Below, piece by piece: positions 1 through 8,250 of a stretch of DNA of 8,250 nucleotides. The position numbers and the translations under genes were made by a program. Source of the DNA: Planctomycetota bacterium (GTDB lineage Bacteria; Planctomycetota; MHYJ01; JACPRB01). The notes below the pieces were generated by a model. It was not told where the DNA came from. It saw only the letters and a list, made by a program, of their open reading frames with translations, and ran no database searches. Numbering within the stretch: the stretch's first letter is position 1; every line of letters begins with the position of its first letter. The stretch lies in the NCBI GenBank assembly GCA_016200125.1, contig JACQFK010000382.1:1-8250 (forward strand), written 5' to 3'.

Positions 1-980
1 AAATGAACGTGCCCTGCTTCACGATTGGAAGCTGGTACGACTTCATGAACCAGGGTTCCATCCAAAGCTTCGTCGGGCGCCAGCACCAGGGCGGGCCAAA
101 TTCACGCGGTCAGCAGCAACTGGTGATTGGCCCGTGGTTGCATGGCGGTTATCCCAAGCCTACGAAGGTTGGCGACATGGTGTTCCCCGACGACGCGGGC
201 TGGGATGTCTATGGCCACATGGGAAAATGGTTCGACCACTATTTGAAGGGCGTCGACAACGGCGTGGAGAAGGACCCGCCCGTGCGCTACTACGTCATGG
301 GAGCGATGGGCGAGCCGAATTCCGCCGGCAACGTCTGGCGTACCGCCAAGGACTGGCCGATGTCTTCGCGCGCGGTTTCGATGTTCTTTCATCAAGGCGG
401 AGGACTGTCCGTGACCCCGCCCAAGGATGAAACATCCTTCACCTCCTACCTCAGCGACCCGTATCACCCGATGTCCATTCCCGGCGCGTCATTCCCCGGC
501 GCTAAGGATGCGCGCCCCTTTGAGCAACAGGCCGAGGTACGTACGTTTACCAGTGACGTGCTGACCGAACCGGTGGAATGGATCGGCCAGATGAAGGCCG
601 AGCTGTACGTATCCTCCACCGCGCGGGACACGGATTTTATCGTGCGCCTGAGCGATGTTTATCCCGATGGCCGGTCCATTCTCATCATGGATTATCCACG
701 CCGCGCGCGCTACCGCGAAGGGTTCACGAAGGAAGTGCTGATGGAGCCGGGCAAGGTGTACCAAGTGCCGCTGGAGGTGGGGTGGGTCAGCCAGGTGTTC
801 AATCGTGGGCACCGCATCCGTTTGACCGTGGCCAGTACGGGCGCGCCGCTGTACGAACCGAATCCTCAAAACGGAGAGGCGCTGACAATTGAATTTCCCT
901 CCAATGCCGTGATCGCCACCAACCGCATTCATCACGAGCGGGAATGCGCCTCACGCATCATCGCGCCGGTGGCGAAGTAG
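1..980 (+). CDS. CocE/NonD family hydrolase (peptidase S15 type), C-terminal part
   Basis: The reading frame is open at the left edge, and the ATG at position 3 is probably an internal Met. About 325 residues are visible, roughly the C-terminal half of a family usually 550-650 residues long. The end of the alpha/beta-hydrolase domain is present: GSWYDF (9-14) carries the likely catalytic Asp13, and IGPWLHGG (42-49) carries the likely catalytic His47. The nucleophilic Ser would lie outside the window. A C-terminal jelly-roll domain of the X-Pro dipeptidyl-peptidase C-terminal type follows from about residue 178, with a family-like NRGHRIRLTVASTGAP segment (268-282) and NPQNGE (287-292). Family members hydrolyse esters, amides or peptides, and the substrate cannot be told from sequence. 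Whether it is exported cannot be judged without the N-terminus. Third codon positions look less GC-biased than in the genes after 5500. No terminator is evident after the TAG stop. Confidence 0.9.
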   Translation, partial: MNVPCFTIGSWYDFMNQGSIQSFVGRQHQGGPNSRGQQQLVIGPWLHGGYPKPTKVGDMVFPDDAGWDVYGHMGKWFDHYLKGVDNGVEKDPPVRYYVMGAMGEPNSAGNVWRTAKDWPMSSRAVSMFFHQGGGLSVTPPKDETSFTSYLSDPYHPMSIPGASFPGAKDARPFEQQAEVRTFTSDVLTEPVEWIGQMKAELYVSSTARDTDFIVRLSDVYPDGRSILIMDYPRRARYREGFTKEVLMEPGKVYQVPLEVGWVSQVFNRGHRIRLTVASTGAPLYEPNPQNGEALTIEFPSNAVIATNRIHHERECASRIIAPVAK

Positions 981-1025
981 CCGCACGGGTCCGCTGACGG
1001 GATTGGATGGAGTTCGCGGGAGTCT

Positions 1026-1047
1026 TACTCGCACCCGACTCGCACCG
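1026..1047 (+). repeat. Upstream block of tRNA-end repeat, copy 1
   Basis: This 22-base block matches 3899-3920 at 21 of 22 positions. It contains ACTCGCACC twice, 11 bases apart. It lies 96 bases before the tRNA-end repeat at 1144, whereas the second block lies only 17 bases before its repeat, so about 79 bases were gained or lost between the two copies. It may be a recombinase arm site or simply flanking element sequence. The rest of 981-1143 holds no gene that can be supported. Confidence 0.6.
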
Positions 1048-1143
1048 AGCTTATCGTACTTGGTGAGATTGATACCCTTGGCGAACAGACGCGGCAATTG
1101 AACTCGCTGGAGGTCAACGAGATCCGCGTTTGCGTTGAAATTT

Positions 1144-1206
1144 CAGCGATCCCCGATCCGGATCACACCCAGGAGGTCAGGGGTTCGAGTCCCTTGGCGC
1201 CCACCA
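1144..1206 (+). repeat. tRNA-Val-like 3' half, attachment-site scar, copy 1
   Basis: Bases 1163-1206 fit the 3' half of a tRNA in standard numbering: T33, anticodon CAC (1164-1166), A37, 3' anticodon stem CCAGG (1169-1173), variable loop AGGTC, T arm AGGGG-TTCGAGT-CCCTT (1179-1195), acceptor strand GGCGCCC (1196-1202), discriminator A and encoded CCA (1204-1206). CAC in this loop would be a Val tRNA. The 5' half is absent: no GGGCGCC acceptor strand or D arm precedes it, and the bases before T33 do not complete a proper anticodon stem. This is what an integration event starting in the anticodon loop leaves behind. The 63-base unit matches 3938-4000 at 58 positions, and its last part (1173-1207) is identical to 5361-5395. 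The pairing scheme is read directly; the tRNA identity is inferred. Confidence 0.75.
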
Positions 1207-1716
1207 TTCCGGTATCAACCGAAACTTCTCGGTGGGTACCACGTGGTGGATGACTAGTCGCGATTCCTCGACGACGACCCGCTCCGCGACAAGCCGGAGC
1301 ACGCTCTGCTTCACTTCAAATGGCGGATCGTGTAGAGATCCGCGGACACGCTCGCAAAACACCCCCGAGCCCCTCCAGCAGCCGGAGTCCACGCTCTCGA
1401 TCCGAATGCTTCCCCTGTCCCTTCGTCTCTGCTCCAGCACCCCTCGATGCACTTCCGCCTGCTTGCGTCGTGATTCCAGTTCTCCAAGCTCGATGATCTC
1501 AGCCTGATACGCGTCGATCAGCCGCTGTACTTCCCGGTCGAGTGCCTTGAGTCTCCGATCCACGCGCTCCTCTTCCTGCTCCTCTCGCGGGTTCACCACA
1601 GGATCGCCGCGACCTTGCTCCTATTGCTCTTTAAGAACTTCCGGATCGGACAGGAGCCTCTTCACATGCTCCCAGATCCAACCTTCGCTCTCCCTCCCGA
1701 TGATCTTCTTCCCGTC
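1177..1716 (-). pseudogene. Serine site-specific recombinase, C-terminal remnant
   Basis: Read on the - strand, this matches the C-terminal part of a large serine recombinase. It shows a segment WIWEHVKRLLSDPEVL, then a charged coiled-coil region including LKALDREVQRLIDAYQAEI, then the terminal pattern EVKQSVLRLVAERVVVE and LVIHHVVPTEKFRLIP. The catalytic N-terminal domain and the zinc-ribbon region are missing. In-frame stops fall at 1717-1719 (TGA) and 1621-1623 (TAG). The stretch after the TAG can be read from a GTG at 1599 as 140 residues, but this cannot be an active recombinase. Its last residues (WWAPRDSNP) and its stop lie inside the tRNA-end repeat, as seen for integrase genes sitting next to their attachment site. 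The family assignment comes from recognised pattern, not a search. Confidence 0.75.
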
Positions 1717-1744
1717 TCAGGACCAGGGCTTGTCCTTGGGATAG

Positions 1745-1791
1745 CGGGTGCTGCTGGGCAATAATTGCCCGCGGTGGAAGGACAGCACCCG
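1745..1791. terminator. Nested inverted repeat, possible terminator of the kinase gene
   Basis: An outer 9-base stem pairs 1745-1753 (CGGGTGCTG) with 1783-1791 (CAGCACCCG). It encloses a second hairpin, 1756-1770, with stem GGGCAA/TTGCCC and loop TAA. The structure lies 27 bases past the stop of the leftward kinase gene, so it could end that transcript. No run of T follows on the - strand, which argues against a standard intrinsic terminator. It could instead be a recombination or protein-binding site, since it sits where the recombinase remnant breaks off. Confidence 0.4.
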
Positions 1792-1817
1792 CGTCGTCTC
1801 GGAGTTGATGGCCTCAG

Positions 1818-3761
1818 CTACGCGGGCCCCAGGCGCCGGAGGAGATCCGCTAAGGCGTCTCGTTGCTCGGCGAGTTCTTCCTTCGTGCGATCATAGGCCG
1901 CGGGCCCGACCTTATCCCTCTCGATCGTTCCCAAGTTCTTTTCCGCCATCGTGACTTGCGAGAGCTGCTCCATGAGGCGTGCCACGTCGACCGCTTCGCC
2001 CCGTCCGTGGCGCTCGTGGATCTCTCGGTACTTCTCCTGCACTTTCTGAACCACGGACTTTCGGAGCGCGCCCAGGAGCTCCACCGGCGCGCGATGACTC
2101 GCGTCGTATCGATCCGCAAGCCTCTGGTAATCCCCGAACAGGGAATTGGAGGGATCAACGGGGAGGAGACTCATCCGCACCCGCGCGCTCTCCAAGAACG
2201 CTCCCACCTCGGGATAGAGCTGGGCGATAAATGCCACTTCCGCCTGCGCGAGCAGCTCTCCCGCTTCTTTCCGCGCCAAGGCGACCTCGACCTCGTGCGA
2301 GAGGGCCTCGATCTCCATCTTGAGCGGGTCGTACCGCGACGAGAGCGTCTGCGCCTCGCGGACGAGAGACAAGACCTCGCTGCGTGCTTCGGCGTGCGAG
2401 CCTTCCTGAAGCATCCGCCGCACTTCAGCCACCCGTTCTTCGATCTTCGCGTAGTGGAGCCGCGTCTCCAGAAGATGCTCTTCCCAATGGGACTGCTTCT
2501 TGCGCATGCGCGTGCGCAGGAGGGCGTGCTTGAGTTCAGTCGCTCCCATCGGCCGGTGCTCTTCCGTCTCGAGATACCGTCCTGAGGAGACGATGTCTCC
2601 CAACTGACCGAGAAACTCCTCGATGGACCACCGCTTCTCGGGATCCTTGTCGCGTCCCACTTCGATCAGGGCCTCGAGCTCCTTTGAAATCCCCGGCAGA
2701 TAGTCCGCCACGTAGACCGGGTGGCGAGTCGCGGGGTCGAGAAGCCACTTGAAGATGCCCGTGCTCGAGAGTCCCTCGTAAGCCGCGCGGCCCGTCACCA
2801 GTTCGAACAGGATGGTCGAGAGTTGATAGACATCCGTCGCCTTGGTCACGGCGACTTCGGAGTCCACCTGCTCGGGGGCCATATACCGGGGCGTCCCGAT
2901 CTTGGCGCCCGGGGCGGTCTTTCCCCTGGTGGGGGACTCATCCGCCCACTTGCCGATCCCGAAGTCCATCATCACCGCGCGGCCATCGTCCTCGCGGATC
3001 ATGATGTTCTGGGGCTTGAGATCTCGGTGGATGATTCCTTTCGAGTGAACGTATTGGAGGGCCTCGCCGATCTCGCCCACGCGGCGAAGAGCCACGGCGA
3101 TCGGCATGCGGCGCTCTTTGTATTTCCCGAGGTGGTCGTGAAGCGTCTCGCCTTCCACGTAGTCCATGAGCAGGCACCAGCCCATCTTGGGATCCTGGAC
3201 GAGGCCCAGGCGCCGGACGATCCCGGGATGGTCGAGCCCCCGCAGCATGTCGTTTTCCTGGAGGAAGCGCCGCAGCGATTCCTCGACCATCACCGCCTCA
3301 AGATCAGGGTCCTTCTCCGTCGGCGGCCGCAGGACCTTGACGGCAATGTCGCGCTCCGAGAGGAGCAGCGGATCCAGAAGAGCGAGGAGATCGCGGTACT
3401 CTTCGGCGGCTCGCTCGCGGTCCTTCAGTCGTCGGTCGAGATATTCTTCAGAGAGCCGGTTGGCGGCGGCGTAAACCTTCTTTCGGATCTCGGGATCGGG
3501 GATGGGCTTGGAGAGGGGATGCATTCCGCCGGAACCGCGGACTTCGGAGACGGCGAAGGGGACGTCGTCCAGACCCAGCCATTTGGGGTCCTCTTCGCCG
3601 CGGACAATGCGCTCCGCAAGCAGCCCGATGGGGTTTTGGATCCTGCCCACGTAGATCTCGCCGAACGACCCTTTCGCGATCGGTTGGGGATTCAGGAGGG
3701 CGATCCCATTCTTCAGGCGGATCGGCTCGGCAGCTTTGGGAGGAGGGAGCGGCTCGGCCAT
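1818..3761 (-). CDS. Hanks-type Ser/Thr protein kinase with N-lobe insertion
   Basis: This 647-residue protein should phosphorylate Ser/Thr in partner proteins. All core kinase elements are intact: glycine loop GSFGEIYVG (31-39), ATP lysine K142 in IAVK, helix-C Glu169, catalytic loop HRDLKPQN (245-252), DFG (266-268), GTPRYMAPEQ (289-298) and DVYQL (310-314). It is an RD kinase, so activation-loop phosphorylation is plausible. The glycine loop and K142 are about 110 residues apart; some 20 is usual, so roughly 90 charged residues are inserted in the N-lobe. After about residue 400 the chain is Glu/Arg/Leu-rich and probably helical or coiled-coil. There is no membrane segment and no PASTA or FHA domain, so it is probably cytosolic. 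The ATG at 3761 is preferred; a GTG at 3818 would add 19 residues of unconvincing sequence, and neither has a clear ribosome site. It lies alone between two tRNA-end repeats. Confidence 0.9.
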   Translation of the reverse strand: MAEPLPPPKAAEPIRLKNGIALLNPQPIAKGSFGEIYVGRIQNPIGLLAERIVRGEEDPKWLGLDDVPFAVSEVRGSGGMHPLSKPIPDPEIRKKVYAAANRLSEEYLDRRLKDRERAAEEYRDLLALLDPLLLSERDIAVKVLRPPTEKDPDLEAVMVEESLRRFLQENDMLRGLDHPGIVRRLGLVQDPKMGWCLLMDYVEGETLHDHLGKYKERRMPIAVALRRVGEIGEALQYVHSKGIIHRDLKPQNIMIREDDGRAVMMDFGIGKWADESPTRGKTAPGAKIGTPRYMAPEQVDSEVAVTKATDVYQLSTILFELVTGRAAYEGLSSTGIFKWLLDPATRHPVYVADYLPGISKELEALIEVGRDKDPEKRWSIEEFLGQLGDIVSSGRYLETEEHRPMGATELKHALLRTRMRKKQSHWEEHLLETRLHYAKIEERVAEVRRMLQEGSHAEARSEVLSLVREAQTLSSRYDPLKMEIEALSHEVEVALARKEAGELLAQAEVAFIAQLYPEVGAFLESARVRMSLLPVDPSNSLFGDYQRLADRYDASHRAPVELLGALRKSVVQKVQEKYREIHERHGRGEAVDVARLMEQLSQVTMAEKNLGTIERDKVGPAAYDRTKEELAEQRDALADLLRRLGPA

Positions 3762-3898
3762 GCGTCGATACCCCGGTCGGTCCTGAGGAAGAGTACGCCA
3801 TCCATGAGCCGAATTCACCCATATTCCGGAAAATGCAATACTGAATCGCCCTGCCCTGAGGGCGCGGGTTGCAGCTGTAAAGTAGGGTCACCGCTCGC

Positions 3899-3920
3899 TA
3901 CTTGCACCCGACTCGCACCG
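3899..3920 (+). repeat. Upstream block of tRNA-end repeat, copy 2
   Basis: It matches 1026-1047 at 21 of 22 positions. Here it lies only 17 bases from the tRNA-end repeat, with a short intervening stretch (3921-3937) that still partly resembles bases just before copy 1. The region between the kinase start and this block (3819-3898) would hold the kinase promoter, but no convincing -35/-10 pair is visible there on the - strand. Confidence 0.6.
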
Positions 3921-3937
3921 CGCTGGCGTCGATATTC

Positions 3938-4000
3938 CAGCGATTCCCGATCCGGATCACACCCAAGAGGTCAGGGGTTCGAGTCCCTTGGAGCCCGCCG
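3938..4000 (+). repeat. tRNA-Val-like 3' half, attachment-site scar, copy 2
   Basis: This matches 1144-1206 at 58 of 63 positions, including the stretch before the tRNA part, so copies 1 and 2 share the same left flank. It is more decayed as a tRNA: the acceptor strand reads GGAGCCC instead of GGCGCCC, the 3' end is GCCG instead of ACCA, and the anticodon stem has an extra G-to-A change. The T arm AGGGG-TTCGAGT-CCCTT is intact. It separates the kinase segment from the toxin-antitoxin operon, whose promoter begins 13 bases further on. Confidence 0.72.
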
Positions 4001-4012
4001 AGTCGAACCCAC

Positions 4013-4041
4013 TTGCCCTCCCATCAGCAGCCGCCTATACT
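4013..4041 (+). promoter_or_regulatory. Promoter of the toxin-antitoxin operon, leaderless
   Basis: A -35 hexamer TTGCCC (4013-4018) and a -10 hexamer TATACT (4036-4041) are separated by 17 bases, close to the sigma-70 consensus. Transcription should start about 7 bases past the -10, at or next to the antitoxin ATG (4048). No Shine-Dalgarno sequence lies before that ATG. The mRNA is therefore predicted to be leaderless. The promoter sits just outside tRNA-end repeat copy 2. Confidence 0.6.
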
Positions 4042-4047
4042 GAATTC

Positions 4048-4278
4048 ATGAGCCACCTTCGCGCCAAGGTCAAAGACTGGCGCCTCATCTTGGACGAGCC
4101 GACAAGTCTTCCGGATGGGACGACGCTCGATCTCGTGCTCGATGACGAGGGGGACGATCTGACCCCGCAGGAACGCAAAGTTCTGGACGATGCGATTGCG
4201 AAGGCTTGGGCTTCAGCTCAGGCAGGCAAGCTCCGCCCCGCGGATCAATTGATCGCTGAACTCCGCGCCCGTCGATGA
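4048..4278 (+). CDS. Putative antitoxin of a ParE/RelE-type toxin-antitoxin pair
   Basis: This encodes a small 76-residue protein, charged at both ends. The N-terminal half contains LPDGTTLDLVLDDEGDDL (21-38). The rest, from LTPQERKVLDDAIAKAWA onward, is probably helical and ends in ADQLIAELRARR. Its layout fits the small antitoxins found upstream of ParE-type toxins: a part that may dimerise or bind DNA and a C-terminal helix that would wrap the toxin. I recognise no classic ribbon-helix-helix or Phd signature, so the role rests mainly on the 4-base overlap (ATGA) with the toxin gene and on size. The ATG at 4048 is chosen because a promoter ends 6 bases upstream; the longer frame from 3988 would start inside the tRNA-end repeat. 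Antitoxin-toxin pairs of this kind commonly repress their own promoter. Confidence 0.72.
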   Translation: MSHLRAKVKDWRLILDEPTSLPDGTTLDLVLDDEGDDLTPQERKVLDDAIAKAWASAQAGKLRPADQLIAELRARR

Positions 4279-4577
4279 CGGTCCGCATCGTCGTCACTCC
4301 CGAAGCAGAGGAGCAGGCCCGGACGATCGATACATGGTGGCGGAAAGAGCGACCCGCCGCTCCAGGCCTTTTCACCGAGGAACTCGCCGCTGCCTTCGCT
4401 CTACTCGGCGATGCGCCGCAGGCAGGACGTCGATATCCGCATCCGACCATGTCCGATGTCCGGCGCATCCTCCTTCGATCCAGCCGGTATCATGTCTATT
4501 ATCGGCTTCACGAGAACGATGTCGTCGTCCTCGCGGTTTGGAGCGGCGTGCGCGGAAGCGGCCCCGAACTCCGCTAG
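4275..4577 (+). CDS. ParE/RelE superfamily toxin
   Basis: This is a 100-residue protein of typical size for the ParE/RelE fold. It shows a first strand IVVTPEAEEQ (5-14), a long helical stretch with WWRKERP (21-27) and FTEELAAAFALL (33-44), the loop GRRYPHPT (51-58), and strands DVRRILLRSSRYHVYYRL (61-78) and DVVVLAVW (82-89). The DVRR..L....YHVYYR..  ..V.VLAVW pattern is characteristic of ParE-like toxins, which poison DNA gyrase in studied cases; RelE relatives cleave mRNA at the ribosome. Which target applies here cannot be read from the sequence. The ATG overlaps the antitoxin stop by 4 bases, so translation is coupled. The stop TAG is directly followed by the ATG of the next gene. No frame damage is seen. 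Confidence 0.85.
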   Translation: MTVRIVVTPEAEEQARTIDTWWRKERPAAPGLFTEELAAAFALLGDAPQAGRRYPHPTMSDVRRILLRSSRYHVYYRLHENDVVVLAVWSGVRGSGPELR

Positions 4578-5186
4578 ATGAAGCGTTCGACGTCAATCCC
4601 GGCCGCCCTGATTCTGGCCGTGACCGTTGGGGGCGTCGTCGCTTTGTACCGCGTGACCGAACCCCGGCGGACACGCGCGAAACTGATGGAGTTGGAAGGG
4701 GTCGATCTTCGGGCATCTTCCGGGCCGGCGCGGGCCCGCGTCGAATCGCTTTTCAACCGCTTCGCGGAGCCGGGGGCCGCCGGGATCTCGGCTCGCACAG
4801 GGCCGATGACGGTTCTTCGACTCGCGCCCGACACGGCGGCGGAACGCCTCCTTCTGGTCCGGACGGCGGATATCGGCGGGGATCAATCGGTCATGGTCTG
4901 GGATGTCGACAAGGGTTATCTCGACGCGCGAATCTGGGAGGAGAACGAGTCACGGATTGAGTCGATGCGGGCGTCGTTCCGACCGGAAGTCGACGCCTGG
5001 TGCATCGAGGCTCTGATCTCCAAGTCCGGGGAGAGGGCACGGCAATTCCGTCTCCTCCGGGAGGGGCGGTTCGTCCTTGTCCGCGTGGAAGACGAAAAGG
5101 GACGCGCGTTGCCGATGCCTCAGGGACTCCGAATGGGGTCCGTGGGCGGGACGGCCGAGGAATGGGCGTCCCTGCTGACGTCCTAA
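4578..5186 (+). CDS. Membrane-anchored or secreted protein of unknown function
   Basis: This is a 202-residue protein I do not recognise. Residues 7-24 form one hydrophobic segment after a short basic start (MKRS), suggesting a signal anchor with the rest outside the cytoplasm. The remaining part mixes strands and helices, for example LLLVRTADIGGDQSVMVWDV and FRLLREGRFVLVRVEDEKG, and has a single Cys in DAWCIEAL. The ATG directly abuts the toxin stop with no gap and no clear ribosome site, so it is probably translated by coupling and belongs to the toxin-antitoxin transcript. It could be an accessory protein of the module, unrelated cargo, or a chromosomal gene trapped between the repeats. 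The reading frame is intact. Confidence 0.75.
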   Translation: MKRSTSIPAALILAVTVGGVVALYRVTEPRRTRAKLMELEGVDLRASSGPARARVESLFNRFAEPGAAGISARTGPMTVLRLAPDTAAERLLLVRTADIGGDQSVMVWDVDKGYLDARIWEENESRIESMRASFRPEVDAWCIEALISKSGERARQFRLLREGRFVLVRVEDEKGRALPMPQGLRMGSVGGTAEEWASLLTS

Positions 5187-5360
5187 CGGGGCGGCGAGCT
5201 GGTCTTCTGGCTGGCTTGGTTGAAAGCCCCCGGTTTACGAGATGGCATTTTGAGAGAGCCGGTTCTTCGTGCCCTGCTCGTGAAATACGCGAGCTCGCCC
5301 AACCCCTGGATTCGCGAAGCTGCAGAATTGGCGCTGCGGCCCTGAACGGAGAAATCGCGC
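5187..5360 (+). other. Intergenic stretch with possible coding remnant
   Basis: Between the stop at 5186 and tRNA-end repeat copy 3 there is no gene with a credible start. In frame with the preceding gene, 5187-5345 stays open to a TGA at 5343-5345 and ends in ASSPNPWIREAAELALRP, a helix-like sequence that would suit the tail of a helical-repeat protein. It may be a leftover gene end brought in with an insertion, or chance in GC-rich DNA. No RNA gene, promoter or terminator is evident here. Confidence 0.25.
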
Positions 5361-5395
5361 GAGGTCAGGGGTTCGAGTCCCTTGGCGCCCACCAT
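5361..5395 (+). repeat. tRNA 3' end, attachment-site scar, copy 3
   Basis: This 35-base stretch is identical to 1173-1207: G43, variable loop AGGTC, T arm AGGGG-TTCGAGT-CCCTT, acceptor GGCGCCC, A, and encoded CCA (5392-5394). Identity with copy 1 starts only at the end of the anticodon stem; the bases before it differ from those at copies 1 and 2, and no 5' tRNA half is present. It marks the right boundary of the insertion block. The following 108 bases up to the ApbE-like gene contain no recognisable element other than a ribosome site. Confidence 0.75.
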
Positions 5396-5486
5396 CGTTG
5401 TTCTTGAAGCCGCGGGCGCGTCGGCAGGCGCCTTCCTTATTTCAGTACTTTTCGGCCGGGCTTTCCCCACGAAAACGCAGAGACTT

Positions 5487-5493
5487 GGGGAGG
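5487..5493 (+). promoter_or_regulatory. Ribosome binding site of the ApbE-like gene
   Basis: GGGGAGG ends 10 bases before the ATG at 5504. It supports that start, which also places a twin-arginine signal at the N-terminus. Confidence 0.6.
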
Positions 5494-5503
5494 CGGTCCC
5501 GGC

Positions 5504-7009
5504 ATGACGAATCCCGAACGCCTGTTGACCCGGCGCCAGTTCGGCGCCCTCGGCATGGTTCTCGCCCTGGGCTCCCGTGCGGACTCGGCCGACGAAAGAA
5601 CCCTCCACCGCTTCGCCTACGACCATATCCTCGGAACCTCGCTGGATCTCGTCGTCGCGGTCGACGATCCGGATCGCGCGGCGCTGTGCGAGACCGCCGT
5701 CCTCGACGAGGTCGAGCGGCTGCGCCGCGTCCTCAGCACCTACGACCCCGCGAGCGAGATCAGCCGGCTCAACGCCTCCGACGGTCCCGTCCGCGTATCC
5801 GTCGAGCTGCTCGAGGTGCTGGAGCTCTATGAGGCCTGGCGCGTGCGCACGAACGGCGCGTTCAACGGGCAGCTCGGCGGCCTCCTGTCCCTGTGGAAAG
5901 ACGCCGAGTCGAGCGGGCAGGAGCCCGGCGACGCCGTCCTGGCCGACGTCGCGCGTCGGATCGACGGGCCCGCGGCGGACTTCGATGTCGAAGCGGGCAC
6001 CGTGCGTCGGCGGTCGGCGCAGCCCCTCAATGTCGATGCGATCGGGAAGAACTACATCCTCGCGAAGGCGCTGCGGGCCGCCCGGCTGCGGGTGCCGGAG
6101 GCGTGCGGCATCCTGCTTTCGATCGGCGGCGACATCGTCTCCTGCGGCGGTCCCTGGGACGTTGGTGTTGCGGATCCGCGGCGGCCGCAGGACAATGCCG
6201 CGCCGTTGTTCCGGACCCGGCTGGGCAGCGGCGCGCTCACGAGCAGCGGCGGATACCAGCGCTTCTTCAAGGTGGGCGCTCGGCGCATTCCGCGGATGAT
6301 CGACCCTCGCACGGGACGGCCTGCCCTGCGCATCCTCGGCGCGTCCGTCCTCGCTCGCGATCCCGTGACCGCCGATGCGCTGTCGACCACGCTCTGCATC
6401 CTGACGCCGGCGGAAGGGCTCGCCCTGATTTCGACCATCGACGGGGCCGACGCGGTGATCGTCGACGCCGACGGGGCTGTCCAGACGAGCCCCGGCTGGA
6501 ACCAGCGCGCGGTGCCGGTCGAGATCCGGCAGCAGCAGAATGCGAGCTGGCCGGTCGGATACGAAGTGAGCATCGAACTCGCCCTGGCGAAGAGTCCCAA
6601 GCCCGCCGCGGGGAAGCCGTACCGCCGGCCCTATGTCGCGACCTGGATCGAAGACGCCGCGGGGCGGCCGGTTCGGACGGTCAGCGTCTGGGGCAACGAT
6701 GCCAAGCACATCAAGGAACTGACGACGTGGTGGGCGTTCGGGTCGAAGGACGCGAACTTGTTCAAGGCGGTCAGCAAAGCGACGCGGGACGGGGGAAGCT
6801 ACAAGATCAGCTGGGACGGGATGGACGACTCGGGCAAGGCCGTGCCGCCGGGCGTCTACGTCGTGCACGTCGAGGTCAACCGCGAGTTCGGCCAGCACAT
6901 CAAGAACATGACGGGCGTGATCCCGTGCCGGACGAAGCCGTCCGGAGTCGACCTGCCGGGCAACGCCGAAGTCGACGGCATCAAGATCCGGTTCGCGAAA
7001 GCGCCCTGA
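5504..7009 (+). CDS. Tat-exported ApbE-type FAD:protein FMN transferase fused to DUF2271-like domain
   Basis: This is a 501-residue protein. LTRRQFGALGMVLALG (8-23) is a twin-arginine signal, so it should be exported folded. Residues about 35-335 match ApbE, which transfers FMN from FAD to Thr/Ser of target proteins using magnesium. Visible motifs are YDPASEISRLN (80-90), VDAIGKNYILAKAL (177-190), GSGALTSSGGYQRFF (241-255), IDPRTGRP (266-273) and DALSTTL (291-297), with D291 and T295 as likely metal ligands. IGKNY replaces the usual G(I/G)AKGY, a small deviation. Residues about 350-500 match the periplasmic DUF2271 type: YVATWIEDAAGRPVRTVSVW (377-396), SWDGMDDSGKAVPPGVY (436-452) and EVNREFG (457-463). 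Usual ApbE proteins lack this tail and are about 330-350 residues. The next gene starts 4 bases on, so the two form an operon. DUF2271 and PepSY-type proteins are known neighbours; the flavin target is unknown. Confidence 0.88.
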   Translation: MTNPERLLTRRQFGALGMVLALGSRADSADERTLHRFAYDHILGTSLDLVVAVDDPDRAALCETAVLDEVERLRRVLSTYDPASEISRLNASDGPVRVSVELLEVLELYEAWRVRTNGAFNGQLGGLLSLWKDAESSGQEPGDAVLADVARRIDGPAADFDVEAGTVRRRSAQPLNVDAIGKNYILAKALRAARLRVPEACGILLSIGGDIVSCGGPWDVGVADPRRPQDNAAPLFRTRLGSGALTSSGGYQRFFKVGARRIPRMIDPRTGRPALRILGASVLARDPVTADALSTTLCILTPAEGLALISTIDGADAVIVDADGAVQTSPGWNQRAVPVEIRQQQNASWPVGYEVSIELALAKSPKPAAGKPYRRPYVATWIEDAAGRPVRTVSVWGNDAKHIKELTTWWAFGSKDANLFKAVSKATRDGGSYKISWDGMDDSGKAVPPGVYVVHVEVNREFGQHIKNMTGVIPCRTKPSGVDLPGNAEVDGIKIRFAKAP

Positions 7010-7013
7010 CGCC

Positions 7014-7604
7014 ATGGCGATGGATCCCGCCGGCCGCCGCCTGCTTTCCGTCTCGCGCACGCTGCACATCTACCTCACGATGCTCGCGTGCCTGCTCCTG
7101 CTCTTTTTCGGGACCACGGGGTTCATGCTGAACCACGCGGACGGGTTCGGCCTGGATACGATCCGGACGGACAAGCGGGAAGGGACCCTGCCGCGCGCGA
7201 TCCTGAAGCCCGTCGACAGGTTCGCGGTCGTCGAAGCGCTCCGGGCCGACCTGGGCGCGGCGGGCGCGGTCGATTCGTTCGAGGAAGAGTCCGAGTCGCT
7301 GCGGATCGTCTTCAAGCGGCCGGGAATGCGCGCCGAGGCGTCGGTCCGGCTTGCGGACGGCCATGCGGAGCTGAGCTCCGAACTTCGGGGGACGGCGGCG
7401 CTGCTGACGGACCTCCATAAGGGCGCCAGCGCGGGGGCGTCCTGGAAATGGGTGATCGACGGGACGGCGATCCTGCTCGTCCTCGGCTCGCTGACCGGGC
7501 TGATCCTCTGGATCTCGCTGCCGAGGCGCCGCGCGCTCGGCATCGTCGCGCTCGCGCTGGGACTGCTCTCGTCGCTCGCCACCTACTTGCTGCTGGTTCC
7601 CTGA
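7014..7604 (+). CDS. PepSY-associated TM helix family membrane protein
   Basis: This is a 196-residue inner-membrane protein with three predicted helices (about 18-38, 146-168 and 173-195). Between helices 1 and 2 lies an external domain of about 105 residues. Helix 1 ends in the family-like TTGFMLNHADGFGLD (34-48), and helix 2 is preceded by LHKGASAGASWKWVIDG (134-150) and followed by LPRRR. Conserved-looking His18, His41 and His135 flank the helices and could bind heme or metal, as proposed for related PepSY-TM redox proteins; this is inference. It begins 4 bases after the ApbE-like gene and probably works with it in periplasmic flavin or electron transfer. A second ATG at 7020 is a possible start. 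The region after the stop leads to a terminator at 7726. Confidence 0.8.
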   Translation: MAMDPAGRRLLSVSRTLHIYLTMLACLLLLFFGTTGFMLNHADGFGLDTIRTDKREGTLPRAILKPVDRFAVVEALRADLGAAGAVDSFEEESESLRIVFKRPGMRAEASVRLADGHAELSSELRGTAALLTDLHKGASAGASWKWVIDGTAILLVLGSLTGLILWISLPRRRALGIVALALGLLSSLATYLLLVP

Positions 7605-7725
7605 GCGGGGTGCAGTCCCGGCAGCCTCAATCCCTCTCATGTGCCCGGTGAGTCGAACCCCAGGAGCCTCCGGCTCTTCACCCGCTGCGGGCGCAATGCA
7701 CAGGGAGGAGCGGTCTCGGATGCCG

Positions 7726-7754
7726 CGGAGCCCCCGCGCGAACCGGGGGCTCCG
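7726..7754 (+). terminator. Intrinsic terminator-like hairpin
   Basis: A perfect 10-base stem, CGGAGCCCCC (7726-7735) with GGGGGCTCCG (7745-7754), encloses a 9-base loop. It is followed by GTCACTTTATG, a weak T-rich stretch. It lies between the flavin-transferase operon and the next gene, and most likely ends the operon. The hairpin is symmetric and could act on either strand. The rest of 7605-7812 shows no gene or clear promoter. Confidence 0.6.
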
Positions 7755-7812
7755 GTCACTTTATGTGGAGGCGGGCGGGGAAATCCGGCATGCTTCACGG
7801 GTCCGTCTCTTT

Positions 7813-7817
7813 GGAGG
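7813..7817 (+). promoter_or_regulatory. Ribosome binding site deciding the start of the SMP-30-like gene
   Basis: GGAGG ends 7 bases before the ATG at 7825, an ideal spacing. An in-frame ATG at 7819 lies only 1 base after it and is therefore an unlikely start. Confidence 0.7.
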
Positions 7818-7824
7818 AATGATC

Positions 7825-8250
7825 ATGCCGCAGAACAGCCTGTCGCGACGCGCGCTCATCAAGGGAGTGGGAGCCCTGGCGGGCGTGGCCGCCCTGGCGC
7901 CTTCGACGGCCACGTCTCAGGATCCGCCCGCCGGACCCGTCGCGCCGCCGACCACCGTCAGCAAGCCGCCCCGCGACTTCTCCCCGGGGGGAGCGCCGAC
8001 GACCTACTTCACGGATCCGGACATCCTCACCGTCGACCCCCTGTTCAACAGCCTGGTTCAACCGAACACTCCGATCATGCGCCTCTGGACGGGGGCGCTG
8101 TGGATGGAGGGCCCGGCCTGGAACGCCCAGGGACGCTACCTCGTCTGGAGCGACATCCCCAACAACCGGCAGCTGCGCTGGCTGGAGGACGATGCGCGGG
8201 TGAGCGTCTTCCGGAGCCCGTCGAACAACAGCAACGGGAACACCTTCGAC
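7825..8250 (+). CDS. SMP-30/gluconolactonase family protein with Tat signal, N-terminal part
   Basis: 142 residues are visible and the frame is open at the right edge. LSRRALIKGVGALAGVAALA (6-25) is a twin-arginine signal. A proline-rich linker follows (about 34-58). The start of a six-bladed propeller is then seen: ALWMEGPAWNAQGRYLVWSD contains the EGP glutamate that binds the metal in this family, and SNNSNGNTFD at the right edge matches the NGNTFD-type metal or substrate site. Members hydrolyse sugar lactones or related esters; in this exported subgroup the substrate is generally unknown. The typical full length is 300-400 residues, so over half is missing. It is separated from the upstream operon by a terminator, so it has its own promoter, which I could not identify. 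Confidence 0.85.
   Translation, partial: MPQNSLSRRALIKGVGALAGVAALAPSTATSQDPPAGPVAPPTTVSKPPRDFSPGGAPTTYFTDPDILTVDPLFNSLVQPNTPIMRLWTGALWMEGPAWNAQGRYLVWSDIPNNRQLRWLEDDARVSVFRSPSNNSNGNTFD

Follow-up and report, generated by a model that had tools for sequence, protein, structure and literature searches.

What leaves three tRNA 3' ends on one strand of a single contig when none of them has a 5' half? The question is raised by contig JACQFK010000382.1 of a Planctomycetota bacterium (assembly GCA_016200125.1), whose positions 1 to 8,250 are the stretch of DNA analysed here, called the window throughout. My answer is that integrative elements, called A, B, and C below, probably stacked up in tandem at a tRNA-Val(CAC) gene of a Planctomycetota-like genome, and that the window shows the worn right-hand portion of this stack. 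This answer draws on the order, orientation, and extent of the repeats, the gene contents between them, a shift in base composition, and similar phage sites near integrase genes, while the intact tRNA at the left, the type of integrase, and the order of events are inferred. The repeats are:

1160..1206, forward strand: copy 1, tRNA-Val(CAC)-like 3' part from about G30 to CCA; joins element A (left) and element B (right)
3954..4000, forward strand: copy 2, tRNA-Val(CAC)-like 3' part from about G30 to the end, with the altered acceptor end GGAGCCC GCCG; joins elements B and C
5361..5394, forward strand: copy 3, tRNA position ~43 to CCA; joins element C and a flank of 69% G+C

The sequence-only reading of this DNA had listed three tRNA 3' ends on the same strand, each lacking its 5' half, and both statements hold. 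When both strands of the window were scanned with the 34-mer GAGGTC...ACCA at up to 12 mismatches, these three copies and no others were returned; the T stem pairs at 5/5 positions in each, and no 5' half was found for any of them. Copy 1 (1173-1207) and copy 3 (5361-5395) are identical over 35 nucleotides (nt), the longest exact repeat of the window, against a maximum of 18 nt in 200 first-order Markov simulations, and chance repetition is thereby ruled out. Copy 2 differs from the 34-mer at three positions, each in the acceptor end. Copies 1 (1124-1205) and 2 (3918-3999) align without gaps over 82 nt at 89% identity (9 differences), with ~36 nt of common non-tRNA sequence upstream. Beyond the tRNA part copy 3 has one extra base in common with copy 1, and the right-hand flanks differ among the copies.

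These alignments make it highly improbable that a single scar was copied by duplication or homologous recombination, without serial integration: the upstream sequence common to copies 1 and 2 speaks for such copying, but copy 3 has only the tRNA part and that one base in common, and the right flanks are different. A chimera of metagenome assembly, in which unrelated sequences were joined at a common tRNA 3' end, is very doubtful as well. The window apparently equals the entire 8250-base contig, tRNA ends are conserved joining points, and G+C shifts at copy 3; yet 82 nt with 9 differences between copies 1 and 2 are not the product of a false join, and copy 2 bears substitutions of its own.

That an intact tRNA was overlooked in the window was considered and rejected. 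ARAGORN called no tRNA in the window, and Rfam returned zero matches at E ≤ 1 when run on the whole of it. Rfam was rerun on slices of 131-141 nt round each copy, where every match fell under its family gathering score (one overlapping same-clan match was left out for each of copies 1 and 3). The tRNA family appeared once only, on the T arm of copy 2 (11.9 bits, E 7). Models of tmRNA or mascRNA, which have a hairpin resembling a T arm, matched the T arms, at best with E 0.019 in copy 3; other families matched too, the best being mir-2796 on copy 2 (E 0.017). A 19-nt repeat family, D4 (3992-4010, 6600-6618, and 7642-7660), was rejected by eye as a source of extra tRNA ends because T stem pairs are absent there.

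Which tRNA the copies derive from was read by indexing them according to tRNA numbering. Copies 1 and 2 show a 5' anticodon strand TCCGG, the loop ATCACAC, and a 3' strand CCAGG or CCAAG (anticodon stem 4/5 pairs in copy 1, 3/5 in copy 2), followed by the variable region AGGTC and an acceptor strand GGCGCCC-ACCA (copy 1) or GGAGCCC-GCCG (copy 2). The loop, in the context GG-ATCACAC-CC, gives the anticodon CAC for valine. In copy 3 the anticodon-loop position reads AGAAATC; this copy matches copy 1 from about position 43 onwards and is unrelated before it. The claim of the sequence-only reading that the repeats are a Val CAC 3' half including the anticodon loop thus stands for copies 1 and 2 and falls for copy 3, whose tRNA sequence runs from ~43 only, and the start that it had placed at tRNA position 33 in copy 1 is probably G30 (1160 and 3954), because the anticodon arm of viral contig L013 points to GG-ATCACAC-CC as part of such a tRNA. 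The end of that contig (11451-11522) is tRNA-Val(CAC)-like, with a D arm, an anticodon arm CACGG-ATCACAC-CCGTG (5/5 pairs), and a T arm, and is cut by the contig end. It received no ARAGORN call and is not claimed as an intact tRNA gene because its visible acceptor stem pairs at 3/6 positions (by eye); the badly pairing acceptor strands may possibly mark a provirus or element boundary.

How, then, could 3' parts accumulate without 5' halves? Integration into a tRNA gene leaves a rebuilt tRNA at one end and a displaced 3' fragment at the other (PMC4383910). Each copy is a 3' part, all of them point the same way, and the DNA to the right differs from copy to copy, which matches the published signature of such islands (PMC4383910). 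An experimental paper suggests that tandem inserts could come, among other ways, from integration at a rebuilt bacterial attachment site (attB) (PMC12884075). No new mechanism is needed for the missing 5' halves, because repeated integration leaves 3' fragments downstream of one intact tRNA. In the proposed scheme the phage-type attachment site (attP) of each element would have borne a copy of the tRNA 3' part, and each integration would have restored the tRNA at the left end and displaced the earlier 3' part to the right end. The order would be the intact tRNA beyond the window, A (with its CocE end), copy 1, B, copy 2, C, copy 3, and the host; the standard model would place an intact tRNA-Val(CAC) gene in forward orientation, ending AGGGGTTCGAGTCCCTTGGCGCCC, left of the window, in agreement with the second suggestion of the sequence-only reading, a target tRNA beyond the window. 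The earlier proposal that the repeats are integration scars is supported in the form of tRNA-Val(CAC) attachment-site scars. The accompanying suggestion that they travel with the element fits in part: attP carries the 3' part in the standard model, but the far-end copy is the displaced host end, and copy 3 would be the displaced original host 3' end. The elements would now be scars, possibly still mobile in trans.

The sequence upstream of the copies bears on which elements had a common integrase:

1124..1159, forward strand: element-type sequence upstream of copy 1, conserved at 3918-3953 upstream of copy 2
1027..1046, forward strand: tandem ACTCGCACC repeat with an 11-bp period, close to the right end of element A
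3900..3919, forward strand: tandem ACTCGCACC-type repeat, close to the right end of element B

Since copies 1 and 2 have element-type sequence in common upstream, A and B probably shared an integrase family, and since copy 3 is without that sequence, C used a different site or has decayed. For A and B the crossover would most likely have been in the anticodon loop, through a tyrosine integrase located outside the window; for C it would have lain further 3', unless that side has decayed. The motif ACTYGCACC, picked post hoc once it had been seen, occurs at 1027, 1038, 3900, and 3911 and not at all on the other strand, against 0.16 occurrences expected over both strands from base composition. 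The tandem ACTCGCACC repeats are possible candidates for integrase arm sites.

Precedents for a site of this kind were found in phages and viral contigs. Viral contig L012 carries TTGGG-ATCACAC-CCGTG followed by a T arm and an acceptor strand, starts at the same base as copies 1 and 2, and received no ARAGORN call; ~240 nt beyond this tRNA 3' half lies an open reading frame (ORF; 2844-3947) with PF00589 (E 1.7e-8) and PF02899. The L012 site (2560-3947) is likely an attP. In the Thermus phages Riverbug and Lalka8, a 3' half whose loop reads ATCGCAC lies 77 and 66 nt, respectively, from annotated integrase genes (PF00589, E 5.6e-30 and 7.5e-30), and the integrase genes of Lalka8 and Lalka27a have been described as followed by sequence matching the Thermus tRNA-Ala 3' end (PMC11437467). 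The anticodon stem pairs at 3/5 positions in the L012, Riverbug, and Lalka8 sites, as in copy 2 (4/5 in copy 1). All three sites thus resemble the copies in being a tRNA 3' half with identity from beside the anticodon loop and a nearby integrase gene; they differ in belonging to phage or viral genomes with their own integrase, and in the tRNA-Ala target of Lalka8 (PMC11437467), whereas the window holds scars. Val(CAC) patterns matched two viral contigs only, and the viral contigs gave no match with the 3' end or the core of copies 1 and 2 as query. Window positions 1000-1260 were matched by 84 phage and 57 plasmid records, eight of which (L005-L011 and L014) were examined; ARAGORN found a tRNA at the match in five, three of them Val-TAC and two Met-CAT, but not in Riverbug, Lalka8, or scaffold L010.

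The gene remnant that adjoins copy 1 is of another enzyme type. Element B and the visible end of element A contain:

3..980, forward strand: CocE/NonD hydrolase gene, C-terminal part, at the right end of element A and cut by the window start (TIGR00976, E 1.3e-57, profile 232-547/550)
1177..1746, reverse strand: decayed large serine recombinase gene, C-terminal part, in element B
1818..3761, reverse strand: Ser/Thr protein kinase of 647 amino acids, cargo of element B (PF00069, E 1.3e-37, scored on a longer ORF of 666 amino acids)

The recombinase remnant claimed by the sequence-only reading is real and, to judge from its similarities, looks like a large serine recombinase. It is open over 140 amino acids (1177-1599), has two in-frame stop codons further upstream, and was matched by eye over 1600-1746 to its relative P0003. 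Three relatives stand at 51% (one named Chloroflexota), the full-length relative in L002 has Resolvase, Recombinase, and zinc-ribbon domains, and among PHROGs the remnant matches phrog_95 (integrase, E 3.5e-4). It had no match in Pfam at E 0.001 or in NCBIfam at E 0.01; five plasmid records matched at 38%, phages gave zero matches, and viral contigs gave no confirmed relative.

Because of its placement, such a recombinase may have built part of the stack. That a DsiB-like large serine recombinase targeting the tRNA 3' end built the stack as a whole, with its gene at the left, directed toward the attachment site, and the repeat inside the 3' end of the gene, is unlikely. The remnant adjoins copy 1, reads toward it, and has its own stop codon within it. 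In Dehalococcoides, tandem ssrA islands have 20-bp repeats, dsiB lies on the reverse strand by the left attachment site (attL), and the repeat lies inside a dsiB homologue (PMC3146451); use of tRNA-Leu and tRNA-Ser by serine recombinases has been reported as rare cases (PMC3218068). Against this, the start in the anticodon loop fits tyrosine integrase sites such as those of L012 and the two Thermus phages, the tails of relatives P0002-P0004 differ from the window tail, element C yielded no recombinase of any type in the Pfam scan, and around the full-length relative in L002 ARAGORN made no tRNA call, though tRNA fragments may still be there. A bolder version, somewhat less likely still, is that in this lineage a large serine recombinase rather than a tyrosine integrase targets the tRNA-Val 3' end, carries that end within its own reading frame, and acts in trans on tiny cassettes that have no recombinase (kinase, toxin-antitoxin), adding them to a tRNA-bounded array that grows. 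If a serine recombinase was in fact responsible, the locus would be one more among the few cases on record in which such an enzyme uses a tRNA gene (PMC3218068).

Read on the reverse strand, the tRNA ends (1177-1207 and 5361-5395) supply ORF tails such as WWAPRDSNP and GAKGLEPLTS in mechanically called ORFs. Tails of this type on annotated proteins may mark hidden attachment sites.

The tandem tRNA-island kind is already known, and the example here, again taken as a stack at tRNA-Val(CAC), is small and worn. In the Islander paper (PMC4383910), anticodon-centred sites form one of two classes (2083/3919 islands), 3' fragments occur in 3760/3919, and tandems of three or more number four. Like those tandems, the window has displaced 3' fragments of one tRNA in the same orientation with cargo between them (orientation relative to the tRNA gene aside); unlike them, for which an integrase gene and a tRNA gene (tDNA) are required, it shows no tyrosine integrase and no tRNA, and its segments are 2.8 kb (B) and 1.4 kb (C). 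As for one tyrosine integrase per island, none was found in the scanned proteins and frames: A is cut, and B has the serine recombinase remnant only. The Dehalococcoides ssrA islands (PMC3146451) are likewise tandem, bounded by repeats of an RNA-gene 3' end, with a reverse-strand serine recombinase at the left and the attachment site in a homologue; the window has this arrangement as a decayed remnant that is DsiB-like in its placement. The islands differ in targeting the tmRNA gene in the middle of the T loop and in a six-gene integration module, whereas the window has a tRNA-Val target, with the anticodon loop in 2/3 copies, not the ssrA T loop, and no such module in element B; 15 ssrA islands are likewise without it (PMC3146451). 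Tycheposons and additive islands with tRNA repeats also consist of tRNA-bounded cargo (PMC10872708), but tycheposons are given as 4-200 kb, and one that is described has the tyrosine recombinase xerD (PMC10872708). The 2.8 and 1.4 kb segments lie below that range, and the full size of element A, which is cut, is not visible. An integron cassette array is defined by attC sites and IntI; the repeats of the window are tRNA 3' ends. No paper was found linking tRNA-Val, an integrase, and a genomic island in Planctomycetes. The window would be a compact case of serial integration at a tRNA site, apparently from a Planctomycetota lineage, and its small segments would reveal what outlasts the decay of mobility genes.

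Several results weigh against a tandem stack at tRNA-Val(CAC). There is no intact tRNA in the window, and copy 3 is without the anticodon part. No tyrosine integrase was found in the nine window proteins scanned with Pfam, nor, with Pfam and PHROGs, among ten frames taken from the 24 open ones over the gaps, the other 14 not all having been scanned. In the collection of genome contigs neither the exact 34-mer (with C or T at position 64) nor a longer pattern had a match, and the predicted host tRNA was thus not found there. The kinase of element B has organism-named relatives that are mostly from the same phylum (10/12 Planctomycetota, among 120/1889 listed); this family thus occurs in Planctomycetota too, and cargo B may have come from within the phylum. 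Base composition is divided. G+C rises from 59.8% in A, 62.4% in B, and 63.7% in C to 68.9% after copy 3, and at third codon positions it is 0.66-0.80 in the segments vs 0.89-0.91 in the flank; the four-mer distance of C, on the other hand, is 0.312 to the flank and 0.319 to B, with A, the shortest, as the outlier. Since C is by four-mers no closer to B than to the flank, composition is a mild argument only.

The cargo of the two complete segments agrees with the sequence-only reading, which had placed a kinase in one and a toxin-antitoxin pair in the other. The kinase has a long C-terminal part. Two of its relatives are 80 and 83% identical to it, and the former is encoded on a 290-kb contig. 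The kinase matches the PADLOC models PD-T4-6 and mad6; no defence role is claimed because its NCBIfam MAD6 score is 99.5, under the cut-off of 460. Element C contains:

4013..4041, forward strand: promoter-like site TTGCCC-17-TATACT, immediately upstream of the small ORF
4048..4278, forward strand: small ORF, putative antitoxin by position only (no Pfam family; weak phrog_645 match, E 0.0098)
4275..4577, forward strand: gene for a ParE-family toxin, part of a bacterial type II system (PF05016, E 1.8e-10)
4578..5186, forward strand: hypothetical protein, its N-terminus hydrophobic as judged by eye, the frame open past the stop to 5342

Two promoter-like sites were found in 3800-5520 vs a mean of 0.2 in shuffles. 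The small ORF and the start of ParE overlap by 4 nt, ParE had no confirmed relative among viral contigs, and a Pfam scan found no recombinase among the element C proteins. In the hypothetical gene the stop codon (5184-5186) is followed by 52 more open codons until the frame closes at 5343-5345, leaving 15 nt to copy 3, and 4578-5345 is possibly one gene split by a stop codon. Its downstream part gave a weak HEAT-like match (HEAT_2, E 0.077); loose-threshold Pfam matches such as this one and CxC3 (E 0.027) were not used as evidence.

To the right of copy 3, the best reading is that the host chromosome resumes at ~5395:

5414..5433, forward strand: weak terminator-like hairpin 20 nt past copy 3, as expected 3' of a tRNA gene
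5504..7604, forward strand: ApbE-DUF2271 and PepSY_TM genes in the right flank (69% G+C)

The region has three such hairpins, of which two overlap at 5414-5433, vs a shuffle mean of 1.6. The ApbE protein had no confirmed relative among viral contigs; among the 120/454 relatives listed, the best stands at 87% and the next at 69-77%, and both organism-named ones are Planctomycetota. Its gene encodes an ApbE-DUF2271-FlgD_ig fusion, and a PepSY_TM-like gene comes next. In a Deinococcus plasmid record, ApbE-type, DUF2271, and PepSY genes are annotated under one match, which suggests a conserved operon with a putative role in flavinylation.

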